From the NCBI RefSeq assembly GCF_010389155.1, contig NC_057761.1, positions 50,776,587-50,840,586 on the forward strand: 64,000 nt of DNA, read 5' to 3'. Below, piece after piece: positions 17,481-55,078 of this stretch. Positions within the stretch are counted from its first letter, which is position 1. Each line of letters opens with the position of its first letter. Both the position numbers and the translations under genes were made by a program. This DNA is from Erigeron canadensis (lineage: Eukaryota; Streptophyta; Magnoliopsida; Asterales; Asteraceae). Below the pieces are notes generated by a model. The model worked only from the letters and a program-made list of their open reading frames with translations, was not told where the DNA came from and made no database searches.

Positions 17481-17903
17481 ATTATTAATATACTAAATAT
17501 ATTGATGTTAATATATTATAAGAATAAATACATACCCCATTAACAATTTAACATATGATGGAAAAGCATAGGTGGGGTACCTTGGTGTGGAGGTTGACGT
17601 ACGTAGCGAGATCGGCAATGGTGGGTAAGTGGGGTACGTGTGGCCGTGTTTAATTTGGTTTTGAGAAGTTACATCATACCCTTAATTGATCGAAGTTAAT
17701 TATTAGTTTTTATAAGTAAACAAAGCTTGCATTATATACTTTAACTTCGTTTTTTATATTCACTACACCGACTTTTCGATAAAGGATATAATTAAACCTA
17801 ACAGTATTAGAAGGACTACTGTTCTTATTTAAAAAAACTTTATCCATTATCCTTATAAATACATGTTTAATATAATTTTAATATGCACAATATTTCTGTT
17901 ACC

Positions 17904-17920
17904 ATTTAAAAGTTAACTAA
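17904..17920 (+). repeat. 17-bp target duplication of the SINE (left)
   Basis: ATTTAAAAGTTAACTAA, repeated at 18164-18180. In unit B (about 42354) the same sequence occurs once, uninterrupted. Confidence 0.9.
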
Positions 17921-18163
17921 AGCAGCATGGTTGGATCAGTGGTAAACACTCTTGTCTCTGGAGACAGAGGTCATGGGTTTGATCCTCATCTCATGCAAAA
18001 GTTGGATGGCCTTTTCTACCATTTAGGTATAAACTGGAAGCAGTCTCTCTACTTAGGTAGAGGTAAGGTCTGCCTACATCTTAACCTCCCTCATACACTA
18101 TCGAGGTATTGGGGCTCAAAACCCGCGAAAGACGGCACTGAGCAGTTACTTACTTTTTTTTTT
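17921..18163 (+). mobile_element. tRNA-derived SINE, full copy
   Basis: A 243-bp element with a Pol III A-box-like TGGATCAGTGG near the head, a B-box-like GGGTTTGATCC about 35 bp later, and a 3' T-rich tail (TTACTTTTTTTTTT). It is flanked by a 17-bp target duplication, and the empty site is preserved in unit B. The head-body-T-tail layout resembles the plant Au-type SINE group (from memory). An 80-codon open frame across it is incidental. Confidence 0.87.
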
Positions 18164-18533
18164 ATTTAAAAGTTAACTAATTTAGTTATAAACTTTACCG
18201 TTAAAATTTGTTTATAGTATTATATTTATTAATATCAATTTATACTTTAAATATTTTTTCTATATAACTTAAAGAGAATATGAAAAATCATATATGACAT
18301 ATTTATTAAAATGACAAATAAGATTTTTGATTAGTTGTAATTTTTATAAATATTTTTTTATTTTTTGCATGTCATGTAGATAATTAATTCTCAAAATAAA
18401 TTGTTAGTAATTTTTCAATTTATTTAACCTCTTAATATTTGATATGTATCTTTTATTTAAATGTGGATAATTTAGGACTAATAAGGCTTAAGTTGTGAAT
18501 GTCAACTAAGTTTTCTGTCTATTTGTCAATACT

Positions 18534-19221
18534 CAGTGGCGAATCTAGTTTGCAAGCTCATGGGGTCCTTGAAATCCTGAAGTGATAACTTGGTTGACAT
18601 TTGACAAAACTAAAAGAAACTGGTCAGGTCGGGTCATAAGATAACAAAACCTATTTGATGAGATTTCGAGAAAAGACTTCTATAAATTAACAATACCTTT
18701 TAAAACGATTATTTTCAATAATTAAACAAACATTCTTAAAGTTATTATACATTTCACACTCAATGTCATTTAAGTTGTTGAATATATTTGTATATTATTT
18801 TGATTAAAAATTAAGATATCTAAATATAAGACTATTAAAGAAAAATAATAAAGCCATGTGGTATTTTGTTAAGATACATCAATCGATCTTACAAAATATG
18901 CCATTAAAAGGTCAAAACAACATGTACACTAAAGGTTAATAAAAGACAACTTTATATTAGTGTATTAATCTCTATACATATAGAGTCATTAAAAGTAAAA
19001 GTAGAAACTCAATTTTGTACAAGTTATAACTATGAGGGTTAAAATAAAAATGTAAGCATATGGTCTTCTTTTTTGATAGAAAACCTGCAACAAATTTCTT
19101 AAAAGGGTTCCAAACACAATTTTCATGGGGTTCAAATACAATTTATTTAAAGTCTTCTAAATAAATTTAGTTCCTAAAGGTGGTCCATTAAACCCTTAAT
19201 ACTAAGGTAGATACGCCACTG
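18534..19221. mobile_element. hAT nonautonomous element (688 bp)
   Basis: Termini CAGTGGCGAATC and GATACGCCACTG form a terminal inverted repeat. The 8-bp target duplication TCAATACT lies at 18526-18533 and 19222-19229. Unit B at about 43188 keeps a single-copy empty site. No transposase frame. Confidence 0.87.
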
Positions 19222-19344
19222 TCAATACTTCTTCTTTTTAATATCTTGCGATATTAAGAAAAATACTTACTCAAATATATTATTTAAGTATTATATAATG
19301 AATAAAACTTTCAAATTTGAAACTTAGTTGCGTATTTATTTTAG

Positions 19345-19870
19345 TAATTATTTAGTGTAATAATTACATACAAATTAATTTTAGCACTGAATTAAATATG
19401 ATATAGTGTTTTTATTTTTATTTTTCTTGAATTTAATAGTTTTTTTTTGAAAGGTGAATATCGCTTGAAATTTCGTGTCATGATTCGACAGCGAGAAGTC
19501 TAACATACGTTGTCTTAACCGGGTCTGCGCTAGATAGCTCTTTAGAAGTAGAATTGTCTGTTCAATTATCCAATGAGGAAAACCCCCTACTAATCTGCCC
19601 GAAAGCATGACAATTAATAGGGGTAAAACTTGTTCCCTTAAACCAAAGTATACCAAAAAAATAATAAAAAAAAAAAATCAAGACCACATAAAAAGACTAC
19701 CTATATATCTCAAAGTTGGTGGAATGGGGATTCAAACTTGGGATCTATAGGTCACAAAAAGAACTCTAAACCACACTCCGTTAAATTTCAAAATATCATT
19801 ATATCTTTAGTTATCAATTAAAAATCCAATTTCTTGCTCGATTTAAATAAATTATTTATTTTTTTGAAAA
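19345..19870. other. Segment inverted relative to unit B
   Basis: This stretch matches unit B (about 43305-43525) only as reverse complement. For example TTAGCACTGAATTAAATATG here corresponds to CATATTTAATTCAGTGCTAA there, and the flanks on both sides are collinear. Copy A carries an extra insertion of about 350 bp inside the inverted part. Confidence 0.75.
19441..19795 (-). mobile_element. SINE-like insertion (minus)
   Basis: It is absent from the matching segment of unit B. On the minus strand it starts with a tRNA-like region containing a B-box-like AAGTTTGAATCC (about 19735) and ends in an A-run (T-run at 19441-19449). No convincing target duplication, so this is only a candidate. Confidence 0.4.
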
Positions 19871-20106
19871 GTAGTCTTTTTGGCCGATGTTTTATACATT
19901 AAAATTGAACTCATGTGGATGTTTTACTTATTTATATTTATACATTTATTTTTTGATTTTATTTATTGTTACAAGTTTGTATAATTTAGATAATATTATA
20001 AAATAAAAATTCATTGATTAATATTAAAATGTACTCATTTATGATATACCTACTTTTAATAAATAAATATGTACTTGAATAAATTGTTGATATATATATA
20101 GTTTTA

Positions 20107-20669
20107 TCTACCAATAAAACATGATTAAAATGTTTTTGAAACAACACGTGTCATTTTAATTTATTTATTTTGTTAAATTAGTTTTTTTTTAATTGTATAC
20201 ATAATCAGTTTCCTTATTAGATTTAAAACTAAACTCTAACTCTTGGCTTATTAATACAAAAGATATTATAATCTTATTTAATTGATCGTTTTTTCATTAA
20301 TAAATTGTCTCTTTTTCTTTCTCAATTCTTCAACTCTTATTACTTATATTAATTATAATAAGTTATTAACATGAAAACTTCAAAAATTTGAGTTTACGAT
20401 CCAAAATCACAAGACTATTTGCCATATTCACTATGATTATAAGTTCCGATTTTGATGTGGTTTTAAAACTTTAAGGTAAATCCAAAACTCTAACTAAACA
20501 TATATTATATTTATCATTATTGTTTATTACGAGTATCATTTAGCTTTGCTAATCGATTTACTTTAATCACAATTTATTTTATACTCACGAATCATATATG
20601 AGTCATATTCGAATTTCTTTATAATACAATCTATATAGCTACCGTATATTATATGGATATTAGAACTAG
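20107..20669 (+). mobile_element. Helitron (563 bp) upstream of FMO copy A
   Basis: Starts TCTACCAATAAAACATG after A and ends GGATATTAGAACTAG before T, with a decayed 3' hairpin (CCGTATATTATATGG). Unit B (about 43670) lacks it, with the flanking bases joined. Same family as 8839-9404. Confidence 0.78.
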
Positions 20670-20860
20670 TACTTTAAATGTATAAATGATGCATTATTTA
20701 TTTTTTACATATTTTTACCACAAAAATTATTTTATACAATGCAACGTGGATTAATCTAGTTTTATATAAAGGGTTAAATGCTGTGGACAGGAGGTACTAT
20801 ATACAGTATACACAAATCATCTTCTTCAACTTACACGTGATTAAAATAATAAACCCCTTA

Positions 20861-20868
20861 TATAAATA
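20861..20868 (+). promoter_or_regulatory. TATA box of FMO copy A
   Basis: TATAAATA lies 55 bp before the ATG, with an ACGTG core at about 20834. The stretch of about 130 bp holding it (roughly 20761-20890) is missing from unit B. Confidence 0.55.
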
Positions 20869-21497
20869 GAAACCAAACATGTGTTAAACCAAAACTCACA
20901 AATACTATACCCACCATGTCTCCCATCACCGCCTGCAACGTCGCTGTCATCGGCGCCGGAGCAGCCGCCCGTCACCTCCATAAAGAAGGCCACACCGTCG
21001 TCGTCTTCGAGAAACAACGCCAGCTTGGTGGAACTTGGATATACACACCGACCACCGAACCCGACCCACTTGGTCTCGACCCAAACCGACCCATTATCCA
21101 TTCCAGCCTATACGCTTCTCTCCGGACCAACTTGCCCCGAGAAGCAATGAGCTTCAGGGAGTACCCGTTTGTTGCTAAGAAAATGGGTCAAAGTCAAAGA
21201 GACCCGAGAAGGTATCCGGGTCATGGTGAGGTTTTAGAGTATTTGAAAGACTATGCTAACGAGTTCGGACTCAGTGAGTTGGTTCGGTTTGAAACGGAGG
21301 TGACTCGGGTTTGGCGAGATGGAAATGGGAAATGGGAAGTAAGATCAAGAAAGATTAGCGGTGATAAAAAAGATAATGTTGTTTGTGAAGGTTTTGATGC
21401 TGTTGTTGTTTGTAATGGCCATTATTCGGAGCCCCGAATTGCTCATATTCCGGGTACTCTGATCATATTTAATTTGTTTTAAGTGAATTTTTTTTAA

Positions 21498-22295
21498 GGG
21501 AAAGGTTAGTTAAAGCAGGCAACAACTATCTTAGGCAGTGATGGAACTTAAACAAAACTTTTGGAGGGGCAAGTTTAATGGTGAACTTTATTAATTTCTA
21601 TCATTTGTCGAGAAAAGATTTAAGTTTTACATGTTTTCATTCGATTATGTCAAGAAAATTTAGATATGTGACTACTTAAAAGATCACAAAGTATTTGAAA
21701 TTTGATCAATCATACAAAACATATAAGTAAATTCCTCATTAACATCGTAAATTAAATGATCTTAAGATAAACTTATTTAACATAGAATACTAAAGCTTTT
21801 GAGTAACACAGGTGTTAAGCAATGGTATATAAATATATAAATAATAAACCTTATTAACCATAAAGTGATTATTAGATATAGTCTGTTATAATTCTTTAAA
21901 ATAAAAAATATAGTTCTTATAAGTATACTTAGGTTACTTGGTAAATTACTAACAATTTAAAAGTGATATAAATACTAGGAATTAAAAAGCATAAAGAGGG
22001 AATTGAACTTGCGATCTCGTCATATAAAAAGCATCCCTATATAAGTAGGTTAACCAGTTGATCTAAAGCATCATATATTAATTTCTGTAAACACAATATA
22101 TTTAACTCAAACTTTTAGGGGGGCTAGGACCCCTCCCTACCCCAACATAATTCCGTCCTTGATCTTAGGTAAGCAGGAGATTATGTAAAATTCATGGGGG
22201 CTATGTATGTTTATCAAATTTAAAGGATGAAGTTGTAACTTTTTTTTAAAGTGGCAGTACCTAAGCTTAGATAAAGTCTGCAGTACGAATCATTT
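21498..22295 (+). repeat. Dispersed repeat in intron 1, split by a hAT element
   Basis: The two outer pieces (21498-21535 and 22170-22295) together match the reverse complement of 3775-3950. The repeat is absent from intron 1 of copy B, so it inserted in copy A and was later split by the hAT element. Confidence 0.6.
21536..22161. mobile_element. hAT nonautonomous element (626 bp) in FMO-A intron 1
   Basis: Termini CAGTGATGGAAC and ATTCCGTCCTTG are an imperfect inverted repeat. The 8-bp target duplication ATCTTAGG is at 21528-21535 and 22162-22169. On the minus strand at about 22075-22000 there is a tRNA-like stretch (A-box-like TAGATCAACTGG, B-box-like AAGTTCAATTCC), possibly a captured SINE head. 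No transposase. Confidence 0.83.
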
Positions 22296-22384
22296 TCTCT
22301 TCTTTTTATATAGAAAGTTGTAGTTTTTATCGTCAATAAACATATAGTGTTAAATGGTTATGAAATTTTTTGATTAGTTAGTTA

Positions 22385-24278
22385 GGTCGGTCCTTATACC
22401 CGCGTTTTCCGGCGTCCGACGCACAACCAAGTTTGGACGCTATTAGCATGGCTGCGTCCAGGTTGTTTCTTCCAAGTTGAGACATGCGTTTGTAGGGAGA
22501 GAGGTGGGGTCCGCTGCGTATGAGCCGTTGCAAAGTAAAAAAATTTTAGTGAAATAGCCGTTGCATTTAAAGTCCTAGGCACGCTTCTCCTCCTTTTTTT
22601 TTCCTATTGAAACCATCAACATTACATTTCTTTTACCACCATTTCATATTTTTTACTCATATTTCTCTCAACAATTCATATTTCTTCACATTTGTTTCTC
22701 TCAACAATTCATCCGCCATGACTAAAAGAATCAACAAAAACCAAAACCAAAACACAAACCAAAACCAATACCAAAACACTATCGATCAAGATTTTGACTC
22801 GTTGCTTATGGGGGGATCTCTACCAATGGGATCTCCCTCGTTCATGTCGTCGTCTAATATGATGGGGGCATCTAGCAGCTCAGGTGCTATGAACCAATCA
22901 TTTTCGCATTTGTTGAATTCGCCACTTCTTAACGAACAGTTTCAGCAGTTCATGTTACTGCAACAATTCCAACAATATCAAGCTACGAATCAACAATTTC
23001 AGCAATTCTAAAGGCCAGTTTGTGAGACTTCGTCTCAACCGACACGAACTAGTGTCGCCTCTGCAGAGGAAGAAGTGGAAGAAGTTTCTGCCCCACCCAA
23101 ACGGTTGACAAAAAAAGGGGTTGTTGTAGCGAATAAGGCGAAGTGGTCAATTCAGGAGGCGGTTTTGTTGGCTGAGGCGTGGACACATACTTCACAGGAC
23201 TTGGTTGTGGGGATTAGCCAAGATGAGACAATGTTTTGGGCTAAAGTGATCGAGGGGTTCAACAACAACCGCCTAGCGGGAGAGCGCAACAAGAGTCAAC
23301 TGCAAGGGAAATGGAACAAGATCAAGAAAACCACCAAGCAGTTTGGAGCAATCTTGAAGAAATTGCAAGATCAAGGACGACAGAGCAGTGCAGATGACAG
23401 ACAAGTGTATAATTCTACTCATGAGCTTTATATAGAGCTTCATGGTCCGACCCTATTTCCGTATGAGGCGTGCTACGATGTGCTAAAAGATTGTCCCGCC
23501 TTTTGGCAAGACCATAGTATTGCCAAACGAACCGCAACTGATTTTGTTGATTTGGGTGAGGATGAGGCACACGTTGGGGTGAGGATGAATGTGGAACCTG
23601 ATGTGGCATTGGACCAGTTGTTTGGAGACGACCCAATTAGGAAACCACCGGGTTGTAATGTTAGCCGGAAAATGTCAAGTGGTTCAAATGCGACTTCTAG
23701 CCATGGTGGTTCGAGTGGGTCAGAAATGGCGTTGAGCAAGCTTGATCAAATGCTCATGTTGCAATAAGAGGAGATGAGAAAAGTTGATAAGGATAGGATG
23801 AGAGTAGAGGAGCGGAAGAAAAGAGAAGATAATCGCTTCTGAAAGCAAGTCAGGGTGGCGTTTAAGCTTCTGCAACAGCTAGTTCCCACCGGTATAGATG
23901 AAGACGAGTTGGAGATGATCTAGACTTCGCGTAAAAACCTTATGGATAAGTACGGGCCGTATTTTAAGGATATCTAGGTTTAATTCTTAGGTTTAAGACG
24001 AGTTTGTATTCTAGTTTAATGTGTTTTAATTCTTAGGCTTAATTTGTAGGTTAATGTGTTTTTAGGATTTAATGTTTTATTTCTAAGTATTGTAATGTTT
24101 GTGTTTAATAATAAAATGTGTTTGTTTAACTTTTTGAAAAAGAAAAATGAAATAATAAAATAATAGATAAATAGTGGAAGAAGTTGGGAAGAAGTGGGTA
24201 GTATAAGGGGGGTGTTCTAAGAGAGAGAAAACTGATGAATAATGGAAGAAATGGGTAAGAATAGTATAAGGAGAGGCC
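22385..24278 (+). mobile_element. PIF/Harbinger element in FMO-A intron 1
   Basis: A 1,894-bp element with termini GGTCGGTCCTTATAC and GTATAAGGAGAGGCC (imperfect inverted repeat). The target duplication TTA is at 22382-22384 and 24279-24281, the usual Harbinger target. Intron 1 of copy B has the empty site GTTAGTTAGTACTGG at about 45918. It carries only the Myb/SANT-like ORF (degenerate) and no DDE transposase, so it moved in trans. Confidence 0.9.
22718..23977 (+). pseudogene. Harbinger ORF1-type Myb/SANT-like protein, with stops
   Basis: One continuous frame (Met at 22718, last codon 23977) interrupted by in-frame stops at 23009 (TAA), 23765 (TAA), 23840 (TGA) and 23921 (TAG). The N-terminal part is Asn/Gln/Ser/Met-rich, followed by an acidic stretch and then a Myb/SANT-like trihelix (KWSIQEAVLLAEAW ... 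RNKSQLQGKWNKIKK). After that come the conserved downstream segment of plant ORF1 homologues (CYDVLKDCPAFWQ) and a charged coiled-coil tail. In Harbinger elements this protein helps the transposase bind DNA. Plant databases often mislabel relatives as glutathione S-transferase T3-like or NAM-associated. Confidence 0.82.
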
Positions 24279-26784
24279 TTAGTACTGGTCTGCTTTATAT
24301 TTGATTTGATTCGATATAAAAGTGAAGTAGTGAACCAAGATTCCAAGAACATTTCATAAGGATATTTAGAGAAAGGAGGGAAATAGTAAAGTAATGAATA
24401 TATGAATTTGTTCTCATTGGTTATTTTAAGTGCTTATAGCTTATTGTGTTTTTTGAAAGCTATCGAGCAATTATAAACGATTGGATAGACAAACCAACTT
24501 ATACTTTTAGCTTATTTTGAGAAGAAAAACAGCGTTTTCTAAAAGCACTTAAGGAGATGTTTAATTTGAATGCGATAAATACTTTCAAATATGCAACCCC
24601 AAACCCCTTTTAGTGTTTAAGGGGTTGTCACTTGTTTAATTTGAATTTTTAGGTGTTGATCGGTGGCCCGGGAAGCAAATTCATAGTCACAATTACCGTG
24701 TCCCTGATCCCTTCGGAAATCAGGTACTATACTTACTGTTTCTTTCTTAATTATGTATGGTCTCCATGAAATAAGACATAACATCATAACACTTTAGACT
24801 GATTTGGCTTACTTTTAAGCCATTTGTCTCGTATTATTTGCTGCTAAATATGTATTCTTATCTATTTGGCTGGTTCGATAGGTTGTGGTACTTATAGGGA
24901 GTTCAGCAAGTGCCGTTGATATCTCTTGAGAGATTGGAGGTGTTGCCAAGGAAGTCCACATAGCATCTTGGTCGACCTCCAGTGAAGAAATTGCAAAGCT
25001 ACCTGGATATGACAACATATGGCTTCGTCCTATGGTATTTATAACTTCTCATACTGGGCTTATTTTTGTATGAATAGTTACACCCAATGATACGACAAAA
25101 GGGGTTTTAGAAATTTGCGTTACAGGATATCTCGGTTGATGGGGAATGCTGACACCAAGTAATGTAATGCAGATTGAAAGTGCTCATGAAGATGGTACTG
25201 TCTCATTTCCAAGTGGGTTCAAGGTTTCCGCTGACATTATTCTACATTGTACGGGGTGAGTGTCTCCTACTTGGTTTAGCTTGTTGAACATTTTCATTTT
25301 CAGATATGGGGAGAACTTCGAATTTCTATCTGTTTAAGCAATTTACCAGTTTGCTTTGTGGGTGTTTATTTCTTTTAGATAATGTAAAGAAGATCATGTG
25401 TGACTGGGGGTCCTAGACTCTTAGTTATCTTGATGCTTAAGACATGTACAATTTATAATTTTTGTCTTTTCAGGTACGAGTATCATTTCCCGTTCCTTGA
25501 TACCGAAGGTATAGTGACCGTTGATGACAATCGAGTGGGGCCACTCTATAAGCACGTCTTCCCACCATCATTAGCCCCTTGGCTTTCTTTTGTCGGATTG
25601 CCAAAGGTTATTTTTATATTTGTAGCACATATACATTCATCTGGCTTCGAATTCCTTTCCAACTTATCCATTTCCTTTATGATAATTTATGCAGATTATT
25701 CCATTCCCACAATTTGAATTACAATGTGAGTGGATATCAGGCATTTTATCAGGTCGAATTTCACTACCTTCACCAGACGAGATGATGAAAGATGTTGAAG
25801 CATTTTACTCGTCTTTGCGAGCATCTAGTGTCCCAAAACGATATACCCATATTATGGTGGGCTATCAGGTAAGATTTGTCTACCCCTGGATCCATATAAT
25901 TTGTTATGCATGTCATATGTAGGTTAATTCTCAATAGAGGTGCTAAAACTGGTGTGTCAGTTGACTTATCAAAATGTGTTCGGGTCCTAACTGGTGACCT
26001 CAGTAGTATGGGTTAGGCTTGGTTAGGTTGAGGCCTATACATTTTTGTCCTTTCCTAATGAAGAATTAACGCATTAAATATGACTGCATAAACTATATTT
26101 TCTATTGTATATCAAGAAGTGATTTTTGGAGGCTGTTTACATTAAAAAATAAAATTAATTTATACATAACAACATGGGAAGGCTTCCCTCCCAAAAATCG
26201 GTTATAAACCCTTGAAACTGGCTAAAATTTGACTGAACGGAACCTTTATTTAAGACTCAAGTTTGATAATCAAGAAACATCATCTACTCTATGTTCGCAA
26301 ACAAGAGTTGAATGTTTTCCTTTAAGTCGCATATTATTAATTTTCATATTCAAACTAGTTAATTTTTCTCCACTTACATTCTTATTATCTTATATTATAA
26401 CATTTCGTATACAACAAAAAGGTCAATCTGCTCTATGATCTGTCCTAGTTGATATGAACAAATCGGATCAAGTTTCAGTTCAACTTTAGTCCGGTTGACT
26501 TTTGAAGTCAGTCTGTATCACTTTCATAAGTTTTGTTAATGAGGTGCTAATTTCTACAGTTTGAGTACAACGACTGGCTTGCCACACAATGTGGGTGCCC
26601 AAAAACGGAAGAATGGAGAAAGAAAATGTATCAAGCTGCTTCGTTAAACAAAAGAGAACGACCCGAGACTTATCGTGACGAATGGGAAGATGACGATTTG
26701 GTGCTGCAAGCTCATCAAGATTTCGCAAAGCAAATATCCTATAAATACAGAGTATCTTATCAACCACAAAACTTCAATATGTGA

Positions 26785-27130
26785 TTTATTTTTATTTTTT
26801 ATTTTTGGTTTGTTTTTATCAATTTTGAAAGGCCATTGCTTGCTTTATACATGAATGGTCTAATGATCATCTTTACATGTACTAAATTACATATTATAAA
26901 AATGTGTTATTCAACTCGTGTCGTCTTATAAAAAAATCTCATTGGATAAAATGGTTTGTGCTTTATATTAAGAGCTAGAGGTTGTGGGTTTTAACCCTGT
27001 TTATGACTTTATATTGTAAAACTTGGAAATAGTAAAAAAAAAAGAAATTACTCCACCGGTAATATAATTCGAAAGATTTCTGTTGTACTACTTATAGTCA
27101 CTTGTGGTTAAAATAATTATGAATAGAGGT
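26785..27130. other. 3' flank of FMO copy A
   Basis: Shared in part with the flank of copy B. A small A-tailed segment (about 26935-27045) with a B-box-like GTGGGTTTTAACCC differs from copy B and may be a SINE relic. No gene. Confidence 0.4.
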
Positions 27131-27490
27131 TATTATAACTGTTTATTGCTTCATGAGACGATCAAATTCTGAACAAGTGGATTTGGAGGAGGACGAAAAC
27201 TCAAAATTTTCATTTCAGCACTAAACATGAACCCATCCAACCTAGCTTGACCCGTGGTCAACTTGCCTTGAATTAAGCAGCAATGAGTTTGAGGGAGTAG
27301 CCGTTGGCCGTTGTGAAGAAATAGGATCAAAGAGATTTTTGAGGAGGTTCTGGCCCACTTTGGAGAATTGGAGTTGGGCTTTATAAGGGCGTTGCAAATA
27401 TCCCGTGAATATTGAATCAAATTTCTTATTCGCCAATTAACTATTTGTGTTTGGTTATGGTCTAGCAATCTAGCATGAACTGTAAATTTG
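27131..27490. other. Segment conserved downstream of both FMO copies
   Basis: About 350 bp that matches 48870-49202 closely (for example CTAGCTTGACCCGTGGTCAA in both). Open frames over it are not conserved between the copies because of indels, so I do not call a protein. It is less AT-rich than its surroundings and could be a UTR or exon relic. Confidence 0.5.
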
Positions 27491-27498
27491 ATCTCAAG

Positions 27499-30794: not shown

Positions 30795-30802
30795 ATCTCA
30801 AG

Positions 30803-41637: not shown

Positions 41638-41703
41638 TTAGTTTAAGTAGAAATAAGTAAACAAAGCTTGCATTATATTCTTTAACTTCGTTTTGTATAT
41701 TTA

Positions 41704-42830: not shown

Positions 42831-43304
42831 TATCAATTTATACTTTAATTTTTTTTTTCTTTATATACATACAAACCAAACATCTTCATTTTTGTATTGT
42901 ATCTTTCTATATAACAAAAATCATATGTGACATATTTATTAAAATGACAAATAAGATTTTTGATAATCTATAATTTTTATAAATATTTTATATATTTTTC
43001 ATGCCAAGTAGATAATTAATTCTTAAAATAAATTTTGTACTTATCTTATAGTAGTATTTTAATTTATTTAATCTTTTTATATTTGATATGAATTTTTATT
43101 GAATCTTTTTATATTTAATATGGATAATTTAAAACTAATGAAGCTTAAGACTTGTGTGTCAACTAAGTTTTTTTTTTGTTTATTTGTTAATATTTCTTCT
43201 TTTAATATTTTTGCGATATTATTCAAGAAAAATACTTACTTAAATCTATGATTTAAGTATTATATAATGAAAAAAACTTTCAAATTTTAAACTTTGTTGC
43301 GTAT

Positions 43305-43525
43305 TTATTTAAAAGAAAATTAATTATATATTTAAATTGAGTAAGAAATAAGATTTTTTAATTAATATCTAAAGATATAATAAGATCTTTTGAAATTCAA
43401 ATGATAAAAACTACTAACTATTAAATTCAATAAAAATAAAAATAAAATCACTATATCATATTTAATTCAGTGCTAAAATAATTTGATACAAATTATATCT
43501 AATTATTACTTTAGATAATAACTTT
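43305..43525. other. Segment inverted relative to unit A
   Basis: Counterpart of 19345-19870. The AATTCAGTGCTAA end and the TTGAGTAAGAAAT end are in opposite order to unit A. Confidence 0.7.
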
Positions 43526-43739
43526 GGGAATTAGTCTTTTTGGTTTATGACTTATGCATTAAAATTGAACTCATGTGAATATTTTAACTACTTATACTTT
43601 ATACACTTTAATTAATTAATAAATAAATATAAATTTAAATACATAGTTGATATAATATTATAATTTTATGCTTTTAAATATATAATGCATTATACACCTA
43701 TTATATAAATTTTTACGACAACATGTGGGATTAATCTAG

Positions 43740-44637
43740 TCTGTCTATATTTCATTATAAAACAAATTACCTCTCTATCTTTTCAACTTTCTATCTTTAA
43801 ATACCCAAAATACTCTTAATTTTCAACACACCCTCTACTTACACTCTATTTCTATACTTCTCTATCAAGCATATTGGCTTTCTTATTTTTAGAAATTAAG
43901 CACTTTTTAGTATTCCCACAATACCCTTTATATCTCACTTAAACATAAAACCCTCATATACCCCTTATTAAAAGATTAAGCATATTTTTTCTTATCAAAA
44001 TACCCCTACTTAAACATAAAACCCTTGTATATCATCATCTCCCCATTTTCTCTAATCATTATACACTTTCATCGATCTTTAATCACTCTCTGTCACCGCC
44101 CTCCTTCTCCACCACCTCCCTCGATCTCCATCACCGCCTCCCTTTTATATTGTCCTCACCTTCTATTCGTCGCAACGTGCGGGCACTATGCTCGTATCGA
44201 ATATATATCAACCATATTTATTCAAACTATCTCTACTTTATTCATTAATTTAAATTTTTTCACTTAATATCTCTATAATACTCTTAATAAATTTATTTAC
44301 AAAAGATACATCCCTTAACCATAAAATAATTACACTACCATTATTTACAAAAGATACATAACCATAAAATAACTACACTACCATTTACATCATTACTATA
44401 AGCAGCATGGTTGGATCAGTGGTAAACACCCATGCCTCTAGAGACAGAGGTCATGGGTTCGATCTTTATCCCATGCAAAGGTTGGAGGGCCTTTTCTACC
44501 ATTTAGGTAGAAACTGGAAGCAGCATCTCTACCTAGGTAGAGGTAAGTTCTGTCTACATCTTAACCTCCCTTACTTTTTTTTAGATTAATAAACGCATCA
44601 TGCCACCGCCTCCGCCGCAATAGCGATACCCATCTCG
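43740..44637 (+). mobile_element. Helitron cluster with two 3' ends, upstream of FMO copy B
   Basis: It starts near TCTGTCTATATTTC. A first 3' end GCAACGTGCGGGCACTATGCTCG ends at 44194, and a second, GCAATAGCGATACCCATCTCG, ends at 44637; both are followed by T. The last four bases are CTCG instead of CTAG in both. The interior matches the minus element at 57940-58316. A SINE is nested at 44402-44582. Confidence 0.6.
44402..44582 (+). mobile_element. tRNA-derived SINE, 3'-shortened copy
   Basis: Same family as 17921-18163: A-box-like TGGATCAGTGG, B-box-like GGGTTCGATC, T-rich tail. It lacks about 60 bp between CTTAACCTCCC and the tail. It is not at the position of the unit A copy, so it is an independent insertion. 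Confidence 0.8.
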
Positions 44638-44649
44638 TTTTATATAAAA

Positions 44650-45105
44650 CGATAGATAGTGCCCGCGCGTTGCAGCGGTGAGATGGTGGGGTGGTAGGTA
44701 ATAGGATGTGATAAGGCATAGAGTATGATAGCCAAATATCTTAGTCGTACGCCCTCGAATTTGAAAATTCGTCAAAGGTATATCGAACGACATCTCTAAT
44801 GAAAGAGCACGAAATTTTAAGAACACCCATACAATTTTTATAGTTTATCGATGTACGGTTTTTGAGATAAAAGATCTTGAATAAATTAGAGGAATAAAAT
44901 GATTTATGGAGGAGAGAGAAAAAATGAGTGATTGAGATTTGAGAAGAGAAAAAAAAATAAATAGTTAAGATTTAAGGGTATTATAGGTATATTAGATAGA
45001 GATATTTAAATTAGTGAATAAAAAAGAGAGATAATATAGGTATTTCAATTATTTTTTGAGAATTAAAAAAAAAAAAAAAGTCGTCCTCTTTTATAATTTA
45101 GTATT
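44650..45105 (-). mobile_element. Helitron (minus) abutting FMO copy B
   Basis: On the minus strand the 3' end reads GCTGCAACGCGCGGGCACTATC, the same terminus as 8304 and 44194 in inverted orientation. The 5' end lies around 45105, about 50 bp before the FMO start codon. Boundaries are approximate. Confidence 0.55.
45092..45097 (+). promoter_or_regulatory. Possible replacement TATA element of FMO copy B
   Basis: TATAATTT lies about 65 bp before the ATG, at the Helitron/gene junction. It is a weak match and is listed only because the ancestral TATA region seen in copy A is missing here. Confidence 0.3.
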
Positions 45106-45157
45106 AGAAGTATTAGATAGAGACGTTAATCCATAACTCACAGATACTATACCTACC

Positions 45158-48100
45158 ATGTCTCCCATCACCGCCTTCAACGTCGCTGTCATCGGCGCCG
45201 GAGCAGCCGGACTAGCAGCCGCCCGTCACCTCCATAAAGAAGGCCACACCGTCGTCGTCTTCGAGAAACAACGCCAGCTTGGTGGAACTTGGATATACAC
45301 ACCGACCACCGAACCCGACCCACTTGGTCTCGACCCAAACCGACCCATTATCCATTCCAGCCTATACGCTTCTCTCCGGACCAACTTGCCCCGAGAAGCA
45401 ATGAGCTTCAGGGAGTACCCGTTTGTTGCTAAGAAAATGGGTCAAAGTCAAAGAGACCCGAGAAGGTATCCGGGTCATGGTGAGGTTTTAGAGTATTTGA
45501 AAGACTATGCTAACGAGTTCGGACTCAGTGAGTTGGTTCGGTTTGAAACGGAGGTGACTCGGGTTTGGCGAGATGGAAATGGGAAATGGGAAGTAAGATC
45601 AAGAAAGATTAGCGGTGATAAAAAAGATAATGTTGTTTGTGAAGGTTTTGATGCTGTTGTTGTTTGTAATGGCCATTATTCGGAGCCCCGAATTGCTCAT
45701 ATTCCGGGTACTCTTGATAACTCTGATCATATTTAATTTGTTTTAAGTGAATATATATATATATTTTTATATATAAAGTTGTTAGTTTTTATGGTTATAA
45801 AGTGTTAATTGGTTATGAAATTTTCATATTCCGGGTACTCTTGATAACTCTGATCATATTTTATTTTAAGTGAATATATATATATATTTTTTTATATATA
45901 AAGTTGTTAGTTTTTGATTAGTTAGTTAGTACTGGTTTACTTAATTTTTGATTTGATTCGATATTAAAGTAAAGTAGTGAACCAAAATTCCTAGAACATT
46001 TCATAAGGAGATCAAGGTAAAAGAGAGAACTAGTAAAGTTATAATGAATATATGAATTTGTTCTTATTGCTTATTTTAAGTGCTTAGGGTTATAGCTTAT
46101 TGTGTTTTTTTAAAGCTATAAAGCAATTATAAACGATTGGATAGATAAACTAACTTATATTTTTAGCTTAATTTGAGAAGAAAAATAGCGCATTCTGAAA
46201 GCTTTAAGGAGATTTTTATTTTAAATGCGATAAATACTTTCAAATATGCAACCCCAAACCCCTCTTAGAGTTTGTGTAAGGGGCTATCACTTGTTTAATG
46301 TGAATTTTTAGGTATTGATCGGTGGCCAGGAAAGCAAATTCATAGTCACAATTACCGTGTCCCTGATCCCTTCAGAAATCAGGTACTATAGTTATTGTTT
46401 CTTTCTTAATTATGTATGCTCTTAATAGAATAGGATTTGGCTTATAAACAGTTTGTCTCGTATTTTTTGCTGCTAAATATGTTTTCTTTTTTCCATTTGA
46501 CTGGTTCAACAGGTTGTGGTACTCATAGGGAGTTCAGCAAGTGCAGTTGATATCTCTAGAGAGATTGCAGGTGTTGCCAAGGAAGTCCACATAGCATCTC
46601 GGTCGACCTCCAGTGAAGAAATTGCAAAGCTACCTGGATATGACAACATATGGCTTCGTCCTATGGTATTCATAACTTCAAATATTGCGCTCATTTTTGT
46701 ATGAATAGTTACACCCATGATACGATAAAAGGGGTTTTAGAAATTTTCGTTGCAGGATATTTCAGTTGACGGGGAATGCTGACACCAAGTAATGTAATGC
46801 AGATTGAAAGTGCTCATGAAGATGGTACTATTTCATTTCCAAGCGGTGTCATGGTTTCCGCTGACATTATTCTACATTGCACGGGGTGAGTGTCTCCTAC
46901 TTGTTTTACATTTTCATTTTATGGGAATACATGTATTAGTGGCTCCATTTTATCAGATATGGGGATAACTTTGAATGTATCTGTTTTAGCAATTTACCAG
47001 TTTTGTTTGTGGGTATTTATTTCTTTTAATAATGTAAAGAAGATCATGTGTTACTGTGGGTCTTAGTTATCTTGATACTTGAACATATACAATTTTATCA
47101 TTTTTGTCTTTTCAGGTACAAGTATCATTTCCGGTTTCTTGATACCGAGGGTATAGTTAGTGTTGATGACAATCGAGTGGGGCCGCTATATAAGCACGTC
47201 TTCCCACCATCATTAGCCCCTTGGCTTTCTTTTGTCGGGTTGCCATGGAAGGTTATATTCACATTTGTAGACGTATTCATTCATCTGGCTTCAAATTCCC
47301 TTCCAACTTATCCATTTCCTTTATGAATAACATATACAGATTATTCCATTCCCGCAATTTGAATTACAATGTGAGTGGATATCAGGTATTTTATCAGGTC
47401 GAATTTCACTACCTTCCCCAGACGAGATGATGAAAGATGTTGAAGCATTTTACTCGTCTTTGCAAGCATCTGGTGTCCCAAAACGATATACCCATAATAT
47501 GGCGGACTATCAGGTAAGATTTGTCTACCCCTGGATGGCTGGATCCATATAATTTGTTATGCAATTATATGTAGGTTAATTCTCAATAGAGGTGCTAAAA
47601 CTGGTGTTTCCGTTGACTTATCAAGATGTGTTCGGGTCCTAAACGGTGATCCCAGTAGTATGGCTTAGGCTAGATTAGGTTAGGTTGAGGCACATACACT
47701 TTTTATCCTTTCCTAATGAAGAATTAACGCGTTAAATATGATTACATAGACTAAAATATGATTACATAGACTATCAGTGTTATCTAATGTATTTCAAGAA
47801 GTTATTTTTGGAGGCTCTTTACATAAAAGAAAATTATACATAACAAGATGGGAAGGCTTCCCTCCCAGATATCGGTTATGAACCCTTGATACTGGTCTAA
47901 AATTTGACTGAACTGAACCTTTATCTAAGACTTTAGTTTGATAACCAAGAAACATCATCTACTCTATGTCCACAAACAAGAGTTGAATATTTCCTTTTAA
48001 GTCGCATATTATTAATTTTCATATTCAAACTAGTTAGTATTTCACCACTTACATTCTTATATCATAACATTTCGTATACAATAAATAGGTCAATTAGCTC

Positions 48101-48444
48101 TATGATCTTTCCTAGTTGATATGAACAAATCGGATCAAGTTTCAGTTCAACTTTAGCCCGGACTTTTGAAGTCAAACTGTATCCCTTCCATAGTTTTGAT
48201 AATGGGGTGCTAATTTCTACAGTTTGAGTACAACGACTGGCTTGCCACACAATGTGGGTGCCCAAAAACGGAAGAATGGAGAAAGAAAATGTATCAAGAG
48301 GCTTCTTTAATCAAAAGAGTACGACCTGAGACTTATCGCGAAGAATGGGAAGATGAAGATTTGGTGTTGCAAGCGCATCAAGATTTCGCAAAGCAAATAT
48401 CCTATAAACACATATCTTGTCAACTACAAAACTTCAATATGTGA
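45158..48444 (+). CDS. FMO GS-OX-like monooxygenase, copy B (intact)
   Basis: Exons 45158-45707, 46312-46382, 46513-46665, 46803-46885, 47116-47251, 47340-47513, 48223-48444. All introns are GT-AG and the frame is open for 462 aa, the usual plant FMO GS-OX length. Motifs in order: VAVIGAGAAGLAAARHL (FAD, GxGxxG, residue about 9), WPGKQIHSHNY (FMO fingerprint, about 188), GSSASAVDISREIAG (NADPH, GxSxSA, about 213), HCTGYKYHFRFL (about 285), GLPWK, and an acidic C-terminal region. The enzyme class uses NADPH, O2 and FAD to oxygenate soft nucleophiles, typically sulfur or nitrogen. Arabidopsis GS-OX members S-oxygenate methylthioalkyl glucosinolates; if this is Asteraceae, which does not make these, the substrate here is unknown. 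No signal peptide is seen, so probably cytosolic. The upstream DNA is Helitron-derived, so expression is uncertain. Confidence 0.92.
45697..45930 (+). repeat. Tandem duplication of the exon 1/intron 1 boundary
   Basis: CATATTCCGGGTACTCTTG occurs at about 45698 and again at about 45825, each followed by the same (TA)n-containing tail. The second copy carries a second perfect donor site about 128 bp downstream. Copy A has one copy only. Confidence 0.8.
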
Positions 48445-48869
48445 TTTTTTTTTTTGGTTTGTTCTTACCTATTAAAAAAGCCATTGCTTGCTTTATACAT
48501 GATGGTCTAATGATCATCTTTACATGTACTAAATCAGATATTTGATTCATTATCTGAAAAGTGTAATATTTACAAAATGTGTTGTTCAACTCGTGTCGTC
48601 TTTGGCAAAAACTCAGACTTGTGGTGGTGGTTGTTCTTAAGGCGATTTAATTGGTCAATATGTGCTTTCAATTTGTATCATGAAATTTACTGTTCTGGTA
48701 TAAGTTTATAAAATGTTGGTTTTACTTTTGATTCAAACTTTACCATGGGAGAATAGGATAGATAGTAAAGATATAAGAAATTACTCCACGCGTAATATAA
48801 TTCGAAAGATTTTTATTGAACTACTTATAATCGATTGTAGTTAAAATAACTATGAGGGGAGGTTATTAT
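48445..48869. other. 3' flank of FMO copy B
   Basis: Partly collinear with 26785-27130. No gene and no clear poly(A) signal. Confidence 0.5.
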
Positions 48870-49202
48870 AACTGCTTATTGCTTCATGAGACGATCAAAT
48901 TCTGAACAAGTGGATTAGGAGGATGACGAAAACTCAAAACTTTCATTGCAGCACTAAACGTGAACCCATCCAACCTAGCTTGACCCGTGGTCAACTTGCC
49001 TTGAATTAAGCAGCAATGAGTTCGAGGGAGTTGTTGTGAAGAAATAGGATCAAAGAGATTCGAGGAGGTTTCTGGGCCACTTTGAAGAATTGGAGTTGGG
49101 CTTTATAATGGGCGTTGCAAATATCCCGTGTATATTGATCTCTTCTTATTCGCCAATTAACTCTTTGTGTTTTATTATGGTCTAGCATGAACTGTAAATT
49201 TG
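48870..49202. other. Conserved FMO-downstream segment, unit B copy
   Basis: Counterpart of 27131-27490, with small indels that destroy any common frame. Confidence 0.5.
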
Positions 49203-49250
49203 ATCTCAAGTATTTCTGTATGTGATTATGTTGGGGTTATGTACATATGT

Positions 49251-49981
49251 TGTTGGGTTATATAACAATTTATCAAATCAAATCACAAAGCATGCAACGG
49301 AAGATTAAAACTATGTAGTTAATTAATTAACCAAAAGAGATAGCATATACCTTTAATTGAAGATGATAAAGTAAGAAACTTTATGATAAAGTAAGAAACT
49401 TTATGAAAAAGTTTAAAGTAAAACCTCTCTACGTTTGCACACACGACACTAGAATGTATGCGTGCTAGCACTTGATCACGAACCGACAACGATTGACTTC
49501 TCCTTTCCCTTGCTTTGATCGAATCACCAAGAACCCTAAAAGGGGTTTTGATTTTCGGCTATAGGACCAAAAATAAGAGAGAGAGGGAGAGAGATTTAGG
49601 GTTTTTAGAAACCTTTGATTTGTATGTAAAAAACAATTAACCTAGCCCTCCTTATCTCGAGTAATAAACTTGATGACCAAGTTTATGGTTTTCAAAACCC
49701 TTTTTCTTCCTCCTATGGCCGCCCCCCTCTAGGAACATTCTAGAGGGTTTCTTAATTGTTCTTTTAATCACAATTATCTCCTCCGTTAAGTCCGTCAGTT
49801 AAGTACCGTTAACTATTAATATTTTAACGGACGACCGTTAGTTTTTCGTGATCTTTAATTAATTAATAAATTACATTAAATATATTAATTAATTATAGTT
49901 ACATTCGTGTCGAGACGTGTGACCCCGTAGGCTTAAATCATTTCTGGACATACGTTCATTTTACGTGATCATATACTAACA
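49251..49981. mobile_element. Solo LTR, family 3 (731 bp)
   Basis: Begins TGTTGGGTTATATAACA and ends GATCATATACTAACA. The 5-bp target duplication TATGT is at 49246-49250 and 49982-49986. Unit A at about 30837 has the uninterrupted site. No internal genes. Confidence 0.87.
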
Positions 49982-50114
49982 TATGTGTGGGTATTAAACG
50001 AACATAAAGAAAAGGAACTTGTTCATAAGTAAACGTGATCATAACTCTTATTCATTCATTTATTTATGATGATCATTTCCATATGTTCGTTTACTATATA
50101 TATATATATATATA

Positions 50115-50600
50115 GGGTAAAGTTATTTTGAGAACCATTTTTTTGCGAGAACCTTTGAGAGCTTTTCAAATCAAGCTCAACCGACGATTGTTCTTTACAT
50201 GAAAATTGTTTTTCGATTGTTTTCTGAATAACTTATGTGTAATTTTGAAGTTTATAATTGTGTGGAGCATGGATTATCATCCGTTATACAATTATGTGGA
50301 GATTTGGATTATTGATCACAAGTGCACGAATATTACTATGATCACATGTATGCAAGTCGATCACATGTAATCATAGCAATATTCGTGCGCATGTGATCAA
50401 GAATCCAAAACTCCACATAATTATATAACGGATGATAATCCATGCCTCCACACAATTATAAACTTCAAAATTACACATAAGTTATTCTATAAACAATCAA
50501 AAAATAATTTTCATGTAAAGAATAATCATCGGTTGGGCTTGATTTGAAAAGTTCTCAAAGTTTCTCACAAAAAAAAAGGTTCTCAAAATAACTTTTCACT
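50115..50600. mobile_element. Foldback MITE in TA repeat (about 485 bp hairpin)
   Basis: The two halves (50115-50350 and 50355-50600) are near-complete reverse complements: AAAGTTATTTTGAGAACC at the left, GGTTCTCAAAATAACTTT at the right, centre TGATCACATG. Flanked by (TA)n on both sides. Confidence 0.82.
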
Positions 50601-50608
50601 ATATATAT

Positions 50609-50797
50609 GGGAAAAGTGAGTATGGGGTTGTTCCCCATCTAAGCTTAGATGAAGAACCCCTCACATACAAATATTATATTATTTGTTTGAATTTAAAACA
50701 AATACATGGCCCCCATGATTTTCATAATTATAAAAAACAAATGTGAGGGGTTCCCCATCTAAGCTTAGATGGAGGACAACCCCATACTCACTTTCCC
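50609..50797. mobile_element. Foldback MITE in TA repeat (189 bp)
   Basis: GGGAAAGTGAGTATGGGGTT-type arms with CCCCATCTAAGCTTAGATG on both sides of a short centre. Directly follows the previous foldback, separated only by ACTATATATAT. A relative is at 56219-56398. Confidence 0.8.
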
Positions 50798-51339
50798 TTA
50801 TATATATATATTATATATATATATATATATGCATATCTATTTTTTTTTATAAAAAACTAGCAATTGTTTAGTTTTTAAACGTTGAACATTTTTTCTTTTT
50901 AATGTTGAATTGAATAATGATATTTTTAATTATATGTTTGTTCTTTCATTTTTATTCTTGTTTTGCATTTATTTATGAGCAAAAACGGATGAACATGAAA
51001 AACCCATTCTATAATGAACGAGTTTGTTTATATCTTTGTGCAATGGTGCATTTTAAATAAACCAACTAACATGAACAAAGGTCTGTACATGTTCTGTTTG
51101 GTTAATTTAGACCGAGTAAAAAAAACTTAACCAAAAGGTAAATATAAGTCAAATTTAAACAACATGAACAAAGTTTATTTTTTTAACAGAGAATTTGGGT
51201 TCAATGACATTATCCATAAATACACCCAACCTCTGTCTCCAGCCCACAGAACAATTTACTCACATTGCACTCAAGACCTTAAAGTCTCAACTTTCCCATT
51301 TATCAATCCATCTATTGTTAGTTGATATGTCAGGTGTAT

Positions 51340-52893
51340 TGATGTGCAAAATCGAGTTTTAAAATTTATATCTAGAAATACTTTGAACTCACTACTACAC
51401 ACTCTTGGGCAGTGGACCCGTTCGTATGCAATATAGTAAAAAGTAAGTCCGAGTTCGTTCACAGGGATTGGTTCAAACTAGTTGTTTTGTAAAACAGCTT
51501 GGAAAATGGGGTGTTACTTAATATCTCCTTTTGACAATTAAATTAAATTTAATTTGAAAAACACAGATCATATAAAAACAGAGAAACTTTAGACAATATA
51601 ACTAGAGGTCATCCACCTTGACTTCACTCGACTTCAAATGTGATTGCATTTAATTAAGACCAAATTCATTTGAGCTGAAAAGATAATCGTGAAAAGATAA
51701 AGTGCTCACGTGGTACCACCAACCATGAACAAATCACCAAATCACCTAAATTACTAGTCAAATTACCCAAGCCGGTACCACCAGTTCCAAGACAACTTTT
51801 CCAATAATTAGTTTGACTGACTATCAATTTACCAATTGAACCTATGTAAAATAACGTGGTACCACCAACCGTTACAAATTACGTTGACAAAATAACTCTT
51901 TTATTAAAATGATATTCACTATCATGTCATAAACTAGTGATAATTGCTTATAGACAAACAACTATTTTAAAATCACATATCAATTCAACTAGTACCACTA
52001 ACGGAGAATTAATACACAACCAATATCATAATAATTATTTAAAAGAATTTAATCAAGATCTCAGAACAACGATAAATAAATCAACTCTTTGAATTAAAAA
52101 TATTGCAATCACATCATTCGTCTTGTTACATCAAGGTGGATGATTAAACGTTTAGCCACTCATGATCAATTCAAAATAATAATTAAAATGAAAGAGAAAC
52201 ATGATGTACCAATCGTTTGAGAAAATGGAAAATTGCAAGACAGTAAAAGTAGATACGATCTAGATGGGTGCTCGTGAATCTTCAATGAATCCGCCTAAGA
52301 AAACTTGCTTGGAGATTGAAGAACCCGTGTAGAACAGCTCCTAGAAAGAATTTTCATAATCTGATAATTAGGGTTTTGTTTAGTATTTATACCCCCTTCA
52401 AATCTGATGTAGAAAACGTCTAAGACCTTCAGATCCCGTGCACCCACTGCGGCGCAGTGGCTTGCCTTTGACTTCTTATAACTGCGGCGCAGTGGCTATG
52501 GATATGTCCACTGCGGCGCAGTCCAAATCCACGTCCCATTTTGACCTTCAGGTGACTGCGGTGTAGTGGGTTTGGTCATCCCTCACTGCGGCGCAGTGGG
52601 CTCATGTTTCCCCCACTGCGGCGCAGTCAAAGCTGATGTCCAAAAACTTTTATTCGATCTTGAATTCTTGTTGAATCTCGCCATCATTTCCACTTGAAAC
52701 AACTATCGATATCATGAATCACTATCTTGACAAAAATTCATCCAAAAATGTGTCAAATGAACGCGTAACCTATTTAGAGTCTGAAAACACTAACAAACAC
52801 CATAAACGTGCCAAATGCATATAAAATCAACTTAAAGTACTTAATAAATTGGCCAATAATGATGTGGGCGATAGGTATAAATTGGTCACATCA
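51340..52893. mobile_element. Solo LTR, family 4 (1.55 kb)
   Basis: Begins TGATGTGCAAAATCGAG and ends AATTGGTCACATCA. The 5-bp target duplication TGTAT is at 51335-51339 and 52894-52898. Unit A at about 36095 has the joined site. Inside are recurring GGTACCACC motifs (51710-52010) and six CTGCGGCGCAG-type motifs (52445-52630). Confidence 0.85.
52448..52630. repeat. Array of CTGCGGCGCAGTG motifs inside the LTR
   Basis: Six occurrences (one with a T change) spaced 25-55 bp apart in otherwise AT-rich DNA. The core CTGCG/CGCAG is an imperfect palindrome. Also found in the LTR at 31573-34172. Confidence 0.75.
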
Positions 52894-52929
52894 TGTATTT
52901 ATTATTGCTAATAAGGCATAAATCATGGT

Positions 52930-53601
52930 TGTATGATCAAATAATCGCACTATGACTCAACCGGAGGTGTGAACTGGGTTGTAGGTGTTGAACGGCGATT
53001 CCCTTACGGTCAGAGGGTCCGAGAGACCGCTTTACGCCAGATGGTTTGATGGCTAAGTCGATTCGTTCGACTTAGGATTTACTCGGAGGATGAATAAACC
53101 GCATGTTAGGATTTAGGATTTTGGAATTATGTAAAAGACTTATTCGGAAGTCGAATAAGTTGTTAGGGTTTATAAGTCGATTTGTGCTCGACTTAAGGGT
53201 TTAAGGATGATTAGAATGAATATGCCGTGAGGTTCCTCCTCTATTTATATAGAGGGTGGATAACTTGGAGAGGAGGGTAAGAGAATTAGGGTGAATCTCT
53301 TTCTCCTTTATAAATATCTTGTTTCCTTCTTGAGGAGATTTGTGGTAATCTTGTTACCTAATTATGTCCGGGTATATCAGAGCTTTAGTATATATCTTTA
53401 ATAAGATTAATTGCGGAATAGATTATATCCGTCCTTTATTGTATATCTCCTCGGAGCTCGGTATTTATTATCTTCGGAGTTCCAGGATGATCATATTAAT
53501 CGGAGGTTAGGCTCTGTTATGGGTTTACTTGTACGAAGATAACTTCGTTCGCTGCTTCTGCTTCGGGTACGGAGCTAGAGCTCCGTATGGGTATATCATC
53601 A
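52930..53601. mobile_element. Solo LTR, family 5 (672 bp)
   Basis: Begins TGTATGATCAAATAATCG and ends GTATATCATCA. The 5-bp target duplication ATGGT is at 52925-52929 and 53602-53606. It lies 36 bp after the previous LTR. Unit A reads through at about 36128. Confidence 0.82.
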
Positions 53602-54166
53602 ATGGTCTTATATATTTCGGAAATACATCAGGGTTCGATCCCACTTTCTACATTTGTAGGAGTAGATTATTAGAAGGAGGGGGGTTCGAGAGTCTTGGGT
53701 TTTATCTCAAGTATGCGTGGTTCGAGCTCCGCATACGACCCAATTGGATGTCACTCTGATGTTTCGAACGCTTACTACTAACTACTATTTCGATGTTAAA
53801 AAAAAAAAGAGAGACATAAATCGACTTACAATTGTTTGGGAACTAGTGTGGAATCATGAATGTTTTTACCTACAAACTAGGGTTCAAAACTTGATCGAAT
53901 TTTATTGTGCTTTTTTCATGGAATATTAATGGTATATAAGTTTACAATCTTATAGAAAATTTGTTCCAATATTATTTTTCATGTAGAAGAAAATCCCCAA
54001 TGCAATTAATATATAACATGATTCCTATTATTAATAGTTAAAGGTTGTTATTAACAAACAGCTTATAAATTATAAACAATAAACTTATCAGGTGAATATA
54101 AATTATACATGCTCATTTTTAAATTTTAGAAAAACAACTTGAGTTTCTTAAATGTATGCACGTTAG

Positions 54167-54837
54167 TAGTGGCGGAAGGAATAGGAGGACTGGGGGGTGC
54201 CCAGCTCCCTCCAATAGCCCAATAGCAGTAGATTATAATTAGCCCATGATCACAATTTTGGGTCCAGCCCTCTCCATTGGACATTCACATCACAGCATCA
54301 CTTCATACGTATATCTTTTGACTCCTCCTCAAGCATAAACACAGTTTTCTTTCTATATTTTTATCTGTTTCCTTTAATTCATTGTATGTATTTTTTTCAC
54401 CATATCATAGTGTTTTCATAAATACTAATTATATAAGAAACATACTTACACAAGAAGTGTCAAACTTCGAATGCACAAGATAGTTTTTGTATATAAATCA
54501 ATTTTTTTAATCTATATTGTATTAAATACAACTTTCTTGACTTTTTTTTTTGTAACTAATTTAGTTACCCAGCATGTTCCCTCATGAAAAAATGGATCAA
54601 TATCTAGGATATTCACAATTTTTAAGAGTTTTTTTTTTAAGAACTTGCGTATAAATCCGGTACGTATCTTGTAAGTTATTGCTACCTATGTTGTAAAATT
54701 TTGACTATATCGTTTTTATTGTATTGTTTAAACTATATCGTAATAATACTTACTTATATTGTTTGAACAATATCGCTTTTATCGTATCATTTTATTATGT
54801 AAGTCCCCGTCAATCTAAAATCTTGGCTCCGCCTCTA
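54167..54837. mobile_element. hAT nonautonomous element (671 bp)
   Basis: Termini TAGTGGCGGAAG and TTGGCTCCGCCTCTA form an imperfect inverted repeat. The 8-bp target duplication CACGTTAG/CACCTTAG (one mismatch) is at 54159-54166 and 54838-54845. The site is empty at about 39430. No transposase. Confidence 0.8.
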
Positions 54838-55078
54838 CACCTTAGTCTCTCCCTCAAAACATAAGTTATCAAAATTCATAATTGTATACAATAAGCTAAT
54901 AACCACGATTCAAAGCATAAATACAATATTCATTTTAAGATAATTTAAAATAAAGATGCTATGTTCATTTGCTGTGATATAAAATCTGAAAAGTATTTTA
55001 TCTTCTACTTTTGTTTCTTTTAACTTGGTGCCATAAATATATGTAACCCCAAGCGGAGCACCCTACGTGAGTACGTGC

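Follow-up and report, generated by a model that had tools for sequence, protein, structure and literature searches.

At 50.78-50.84 Mb of contig C1 of the horseweed (Erigeron canadensis) genome lies a tandem duplication of two head-to-tail units, A and B, each of which carries one seven-exon gene of the flavin-containing monooxygenase (FMO) GS-OX-like type. The window, by which we mean the whole stretch of 64,000 nucleotides that was analysed, contains both units in full. The copy in A is a pseudogene, the copy in B is intact, and a tract comprising most of exon 1 is free of substitutions between them. In the account that we favour, a segment bearing one such gene would have been duplicated head-to-tail through a join without visible homology. 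The units would then have diverged to about 8.8% substitutions, each gaining private transposable elements, while the two genes would have stayed under constraint, on average, for most of the time, with the copy in A probably disabled late. Recently, ectopic gene conversion would have replaced exon 1 of one copy with that of the other, an exchange limited to the roughly 600 bases that can still be aligned, with non-homologous DNA upstream of them and a private insertion in intron 1 beyond. We put the probability of this explanation as a whole at about 0.87.

The duplication itself is real. The sequence CCCTACGT occurs in the window only at 39660-39667 and 55061-55068, that is, at the end of both units, and TGATGGAAAAG opens both (17556 and 39668), giving a direct join at 39667/39668, ungapped in a window that contains no N. 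A preliminary description of this DNA had reported such a visible junction, together with unit edges that do prove sharp, although its left edge (17553) was 3-4 bases early and its right edge (55078) 10 late. Nor does the left-edge sequence recur exactly at 39669, as had been supposed: TGATGGAAAAGC begins at 17556, and its partner GATGGAAAAGG, which begins at 39669, ends in G, not C. No microhomology was found at the breakpoint, where the bases just outside the units, preceding 17556 and following 55068, both mismatch the junction. The homology between left and right breakpoints that marks unequal crossing-over is thus absent, with zero shared bases at the join, and it is from this that we infer a non-homologous origin; short homology could have eroded since.

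Unit A has 30 matching segments in unit B, 21 of which make up one collinear chain in a single order. The nine outside it comprise a self-match of the junction stretch, four others longer than 60 bases, which are a copy resembling a short interspersed nuclear element (SINE) and related repeats, and four shorter ones. In the control search, A against B gave 29 segments (8626 bits), the left 15401 bases of the window gave four (1099 bits), and unit B shuffled in 3-base blocks gave no match in any of 10 versions. The proposal of a complete tandem duplication with collinear units is therefore upheld by the chain and the empty shuffled controls. Divergence and gaps were measured on a hand-trimmed version of the chain, which treats exon 1 as two pieces, has its overlapping ends removed, and takes 18167-18253, from the off-chain match 18151-18253, in place of the short segment 18230-18266. 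All 476 substitutions in its 5996 aligned sites fall in the 5444 sites outside the exon 1 tract, where they amount to 8.8%. The expectation of a similar backbone divergence throughout fails, and does so where the comparison is most informative, since the 21 aligned segments range from 3 to 17% and the exon 1 segment has 0/552.

The units differ in length by 6711 bases, a difference that follows from each unit having taken up its own transposable elements, much as the preliminary description had argued. The hand-trimmed chain has 21 gaps, of which 12 are one-sided (net +6723), seven are two-sided (+39) and two are small; the one- and two-sided gaps sum to 6762, and the excess of 51 is accounted for by small indels and by overlaps where gaps begin and end. 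Eight insertions, seven in one-sided gaps and one in a two-sided gap, are bounded by target-site duplications, and for each the other unit preserves an empty site that can be read, several of them by eye from the sequence comparison; all eight can be placed after the duplication. One is SINE-like, three are of the hAT type, three resemble long terminal repeats (LTRs) and one is Harbinger-like, names that we take from rules on element ends and target-site duplications. The idea that each unit serves as the empty-site control of the other thus stands for these eight. It does not extend to all of the two-sided gaps, in all 4777 (A)/4738 (B) bases: the gap of 1909 (A)/101 (B) is resolved by the Harbinger-like insertion and that of 521/212 by an inversion, and in the others no empty site was found, so that they are not orderable relative to the duplication. 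At exon 1 the idea carries the further caveat that divergence there has been erased.

The splice models of both genes were set by hand and then translated. From its sequence, the B product is predicted to be an FMO GS-OX-like protein of the S-oxygenation clade, with an FMO-like domain (in the exon 1 open reading frame, ORF), a GxGxxG motif and a close named match: across 84% of its length it has 100% identity to P0123, the E. canadensis flavin-containing monooxygenase FMO GS-OX-like 4 isoform X2, the sole 100% match among the best 120 of 2112. The A copy has an in-frame stop (TGA) in exon 3, a 12-base deletion in the motif that binds flavin adenine dinucleotide (FAD), by which four residues of the GAGAAGLAAARH stretch and with them the last part of GxGxxG are gone, and a 3-base deletion in exon 5 that removes a Trp codon kept in 12 of 13 outgroup proteins. 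The order in which these lesions arose is one that we infer. Exons 2-7 differ at 48/836 sites. Outside the tract (277 codons), nonsynonymous divergence (dN) is 0.0385 and synonymous divergence (dS) 0.1445, and the resulting dN/dS of 0.27 suggests that most of the divergence accrued while constraint, averaged over the pair, still held; the loss of A probably came late and looks recent. Of 32 differing alignment columns, 13 were scored as changes derived in A, a count that takes in the stop and the gap columns, seven as derived in B, and 12 as ambiguous. One of the B-derived changes hits a Pro present in 13/13 outgroups, so the predicted activity of B is not assured. Plant genes acquire about 7e-9 substitutions per site per year, a rate at which dS of 0.145 corresponds to roughly 10 million years of divergence, to an order of magnitude only.

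The zero-substitution tract, which the preliminary description does not mention, stands apart from this background. It has no substitution at 552 aligned sites, against 476 in the remaining 5444, and its synonymous sites show 0 differences at 118, against a dS of 0.145 in exons 2-7. The longest identical run, of 563 columns, was reached in 0/20000 permutations (maximum 190). The run begins at codon 7, which encodes Cys in A, as in four of eight Asteraceae outgroups, and Phe in B. On the right the tract ends in intron 1, at the site of the 814-base insertion in A; on the left the A-B alignment stops about 54 bases upstream of it, and the tract fills most of the 606 pairable A bases there. The rule of three puts the divergence of the tract under 0.54%, and it would then have less than about 6% of the duplication's age; silent sites alone give a weaker bound of about 18%. 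An identical tract within a diverged pair, extending to silent and intron sites, is what ectopic gene conversion leaves behind, and recent conversion is, from these patterns, the best reading of exon 1, two indels inside the tract notwithstanding.

The preliminary description had itself named a reading that would overturn it, in which the units are allelic haplotypes set in series by the assembler. Such an error is conceivable in an assembly of 426.2 Mb in 356 contigs, judged here from its assembled sequence, but substitutions of 8.8% outside the tract and a dS of 0.145 are far above the allelic level in horseweed, which we take to be a mostly selfing diploid. Judged from the assembly, moreover, there is no further allelic copy: gene-body matches in the 426-Mb genome comprise two full-length ones and five others of 181 bases or fewer, with no third full-length match, and the ungapped junction without N also speaks against a misplaced haplotype. 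We consider this reading very improbable. Strong constraint on the FAD-binding part of the protein is likewise a very improbable explanation of the identity of exon 1. This exon does encode GxGxxG, the N-terminal FAD-binding motif of FMOs according to passages of a rice family survey (PMC9960948), but the 118 synonymous sites and the intron bases of the tract are equally without difference, and the motif is no longer complete in A itself. With 35 bases of A's intron 1 inside the tract, protein constraint alone is insufficient, and it was rejected as the cause on silent sites.

Recent conversion after an old duplication has nonetheless to be weighed against several observations that tell against it. 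Most of both units is unalignable, the aligned share being 28% of A and 40% of B, with a common backbone of 6.2 kb per unit. The single diagonal that had been anticipated holds for the 21-segment chain and is broken by an inversion of about 0.2 kb between the units (A 19343-19862, B 43316-43523); apart from it, the units have the adjacency, collinearity, direct orientation and common junction of a tandem segmental duplication. The tract contains two deletions in A, of 12 and 10 bases, each between short direct repeats (AGCAGCC, ACTCT), yet no substitution, and with an indel share elsewhere of 93/569 events the chance that both events are indels is about 0.03. These deletions may reflect chance, or be older ones that escaped conversion. 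Finally, a base-level fault of the assembly could lie behind the tract, with B reads having overwritten A during assembly or polishing. The tract is short enough for this, but B reads suit B better than A, and polishing with them would be expected to remove the private 12- and 10-base deletions that A retains; as judged from the assembled sequence, such a fault is unlikely, if less so than misplaced haplotypes.

Upstream of the genes, beginning about 35 bases ahead of the start codon, no homology between A and B was detected. When A 20691-20882 (192 bases) was compared with B 43670-45124, the best local score was 30, and the top score of 50 shuffles was 33. The A upstream region has a TATA-like sequence. 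In B a high-copy dispersed repeat stops about 35 bases short of the start codon in the intact gene, and the corresponding position in A gave no match to it. Of 9658 candidates 40 were scored, and all 39 other than the repeat itself match it at 87-92%, a lower bound on its copy number; of three relatives that were aligned, L028 and L029 align along 44638-45123 and L030, a minus-strand match, does not as given. A tentative extension of the conversion account, which we think rather doubtful, is that transposons and promoter replacement left an exon 1 island of ~600 bases still recombining, so that exon 1 evolved in concert while the other exons diverged, the B promoter having been lost to the dispersed repeat. 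If this were true, mobile elements would determine the exon at which a gene pair becomes homogenised.

Table 1. Features of the duplicated region, in window coordinates
Feature	Position	Strand	Details
Unit A	17556..39667	+	22112 bases; from collinear chain and edges
A/B junction	39660..39679	+	Blunt; CCCTACGT joined to TGATGGAAAAG
Unit B	39668..55068	+	15401 bases; from collinear chain and edges
FMO GS-OX-like pseudogene in A	20916..26784	+	Hand-set splice model, compared with 13 outgroup proteins; exons 20916-21453, 24653-24723, 24882-25034, 25173-25255, 25474-25606, 25695-25868, 26560-26784
Intact FMO GS-OX-like gene in B	45158..48444	+	462 codons open; exons 45158-45707, 46312-46382, 46513-46665, 46803-46885, 47116-47251, 47340-47513, 48223-48444
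Zero-substitution tract in A	20937..21488	+	Exon 1 from about codon 7, and 35 bases of intron 1
Zero-substitution tract in B	45179..45752	+	
Inverted segment	A 19343-19862 vs B 43316-43523		About 0.2 kb; about 340 extra bases in A
SINE-like insertion, private to A	17921..18163	+	Target-site duplication ATTTAAAAGTTAACTAA; empty site in B
hAT-type insertion, private to A	18534..19221		Flanks TCAATACT; end repeats agree 13/15
One-sided insertion, 814 bases	21489..22302		Intron 1 of A pseudogene; right end of zero-substitution tract
PIF/Harbinger-like insertion	22385..24278	+	Intron 1 of A pseudogene; TTA flanks; similar inverted ends (by eye)
hAT-type insertion, private to A	27499..30794		Flanks ATCTCAAG
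One-sided 3.2-kb insertion in A	30974..34219		About 52-base inverted ends; within TA repeat
Solo-LTR-like insertion, private to A	36566..39307		TGTCAC...TGTCA; imperfect duplication around GTTAT
One-sided 1.8-kb insertion in B	39825..41652		Element and 0.36-kb palindrome
High-copy dispersed repeat in B	44638..45123		Ends about 35 bases before start codon of intact gene
Solo-LTR-like insertion, private to B	49251..49981		TATGT flanks
LTR-like insertion (TG...CA), private to B	52930..53601		ATGGT flanks; read by eye
hAT-type insertion, private to B	54167..54837		8-base duplication with one mismatch: CACGTTAG, CACCTTAG

Among the insertions, the target-site duplications of the hAT type are 8 bases long in all three, one with a mismatch. 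The largest of the three (27499..30794) has a nested copy, at 27855-29853, of the LTR-like family seen at 36566-39307. Genome relatives of the LTR-like insertions 36566..39307 and 49251..49981 are many: 40 candidates were scored for each, of 731 and of 1454, respectively, as lower bounds, and among the candidates scored are same-strand pairs about 5-11 kb apart, the pattern expected of LTRs. The element within the 1.8-kb insertion of B has inverted ends of about 200 bases (39815-40025 and 41074-41284). A Pfam scan covered 36 of 72 ORFs in the units, taken from a pool of stop-to-stop frames of at least 65 codons that overlap the units and are not of low complexity, with those of the FMO gene and some overlapping ORFs set aside; it gave one match only, to a Myb/SANT-like domain in an ORF of the PIF/Harbinger-like insertion, below Pfam's cut-offs. 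Searches of the window with Rfam at gathering thresholds and for tRNAs each gave 0 matches. Unit B also has a palindromic element of about 0.5 kb at 50106-50608, with arms 89% alike, and B 50544-50793 and A 34220-34600 both resemble 55838-56406, outside the units.

Some sequences related to the gene pair lie elsewhere. A piece of 44-46 bases at the border of FMO intron 6 and exon 7 (B 48200-48243, A 26535-26580) also lies within a dispersed repeat on C5, C6 and C7, at about 1499-1544 of L011, L012 and L014, the first and last of which are 95% alike over 2.4 kb; at two positions that distinguish A from B it combines their states, as expected of a fragment captured long ago. Three further matches to FMO exon 1 (L003-L005) lie in one direction within 10 kb at C3:40944267-40953611, two of them 83% alike in DNA over about 0.75 kb. 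Intron 1 of B has, at 45825-45925, a second partial copy of the end of exon 1 and the start of intron 1 (45698-45790), a 95-column match with one substitution and two gaps that brings a second donor-like site. Outside the units, a piece of a DUF863 gene on the minus strand (ORF 11074-12081) has, at 11694-11928, about 3.9 copies of an in-frame 60-base (20-residue) tandem repeat.

Horseweed has nine chromosomes, with genome sizes of 0.425 and 0.426 Gb given in a table (PMC11129445) that agree with the assembly, and a transcript like flavin-containing monooxygenase 1 appears in a table on glyphosate-treated horseweed (PMC8535903, from an excerpt). A literature search found nothing that pairs Erigeron canadensis with flavin-containing monooxygenase, reports on gene conversion in Conyza canadensis were, by title and start of abstract, not about the gene studied here, and wider searches gave nothing on the locus among the matches listed. 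The locus is ordinary plant genome evolution made unusually legible: a self-controlled record with eight empty sites, a junction that can be read directly, a pseudogene that looks fresh and, with its limits near non-homologous DNA, a conversion tract. It makes a good case for teaching and calibration, and a warning, in that a duplication dated from exon 1 would seem to be of near zero age.

Every process at the locus is already known; their combination is neat, not new, and overturns nothing. The AT3-1/AT3-2 pair of the Solanaceae, as described in passages of PMC6343889, likewise consists of tandem duplicates, one of them a pseudogene, with recombination between copies that touches part of the gene; in horseweed it is exon 1 that the exchange would have homogenised, and a single genome was compared. 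The rice FMO clusters belong to the same enzyme superfamily, include the S-oxygenation clade and possibly arose by tandem duplication, but that work (PMC9960948) is a family survey, whose passages at hand contain no analysis of junctions, empty sites or conversion. A further parallel is gene conversion between duplicated genes, where, in the relevant passages of PMC3924837, exchange of DNA fragments keeps the divergence of duplicates low; the horseweed case differs in being a single tract, on a homologous island of roughly 600 bases with non-homologous flanks.
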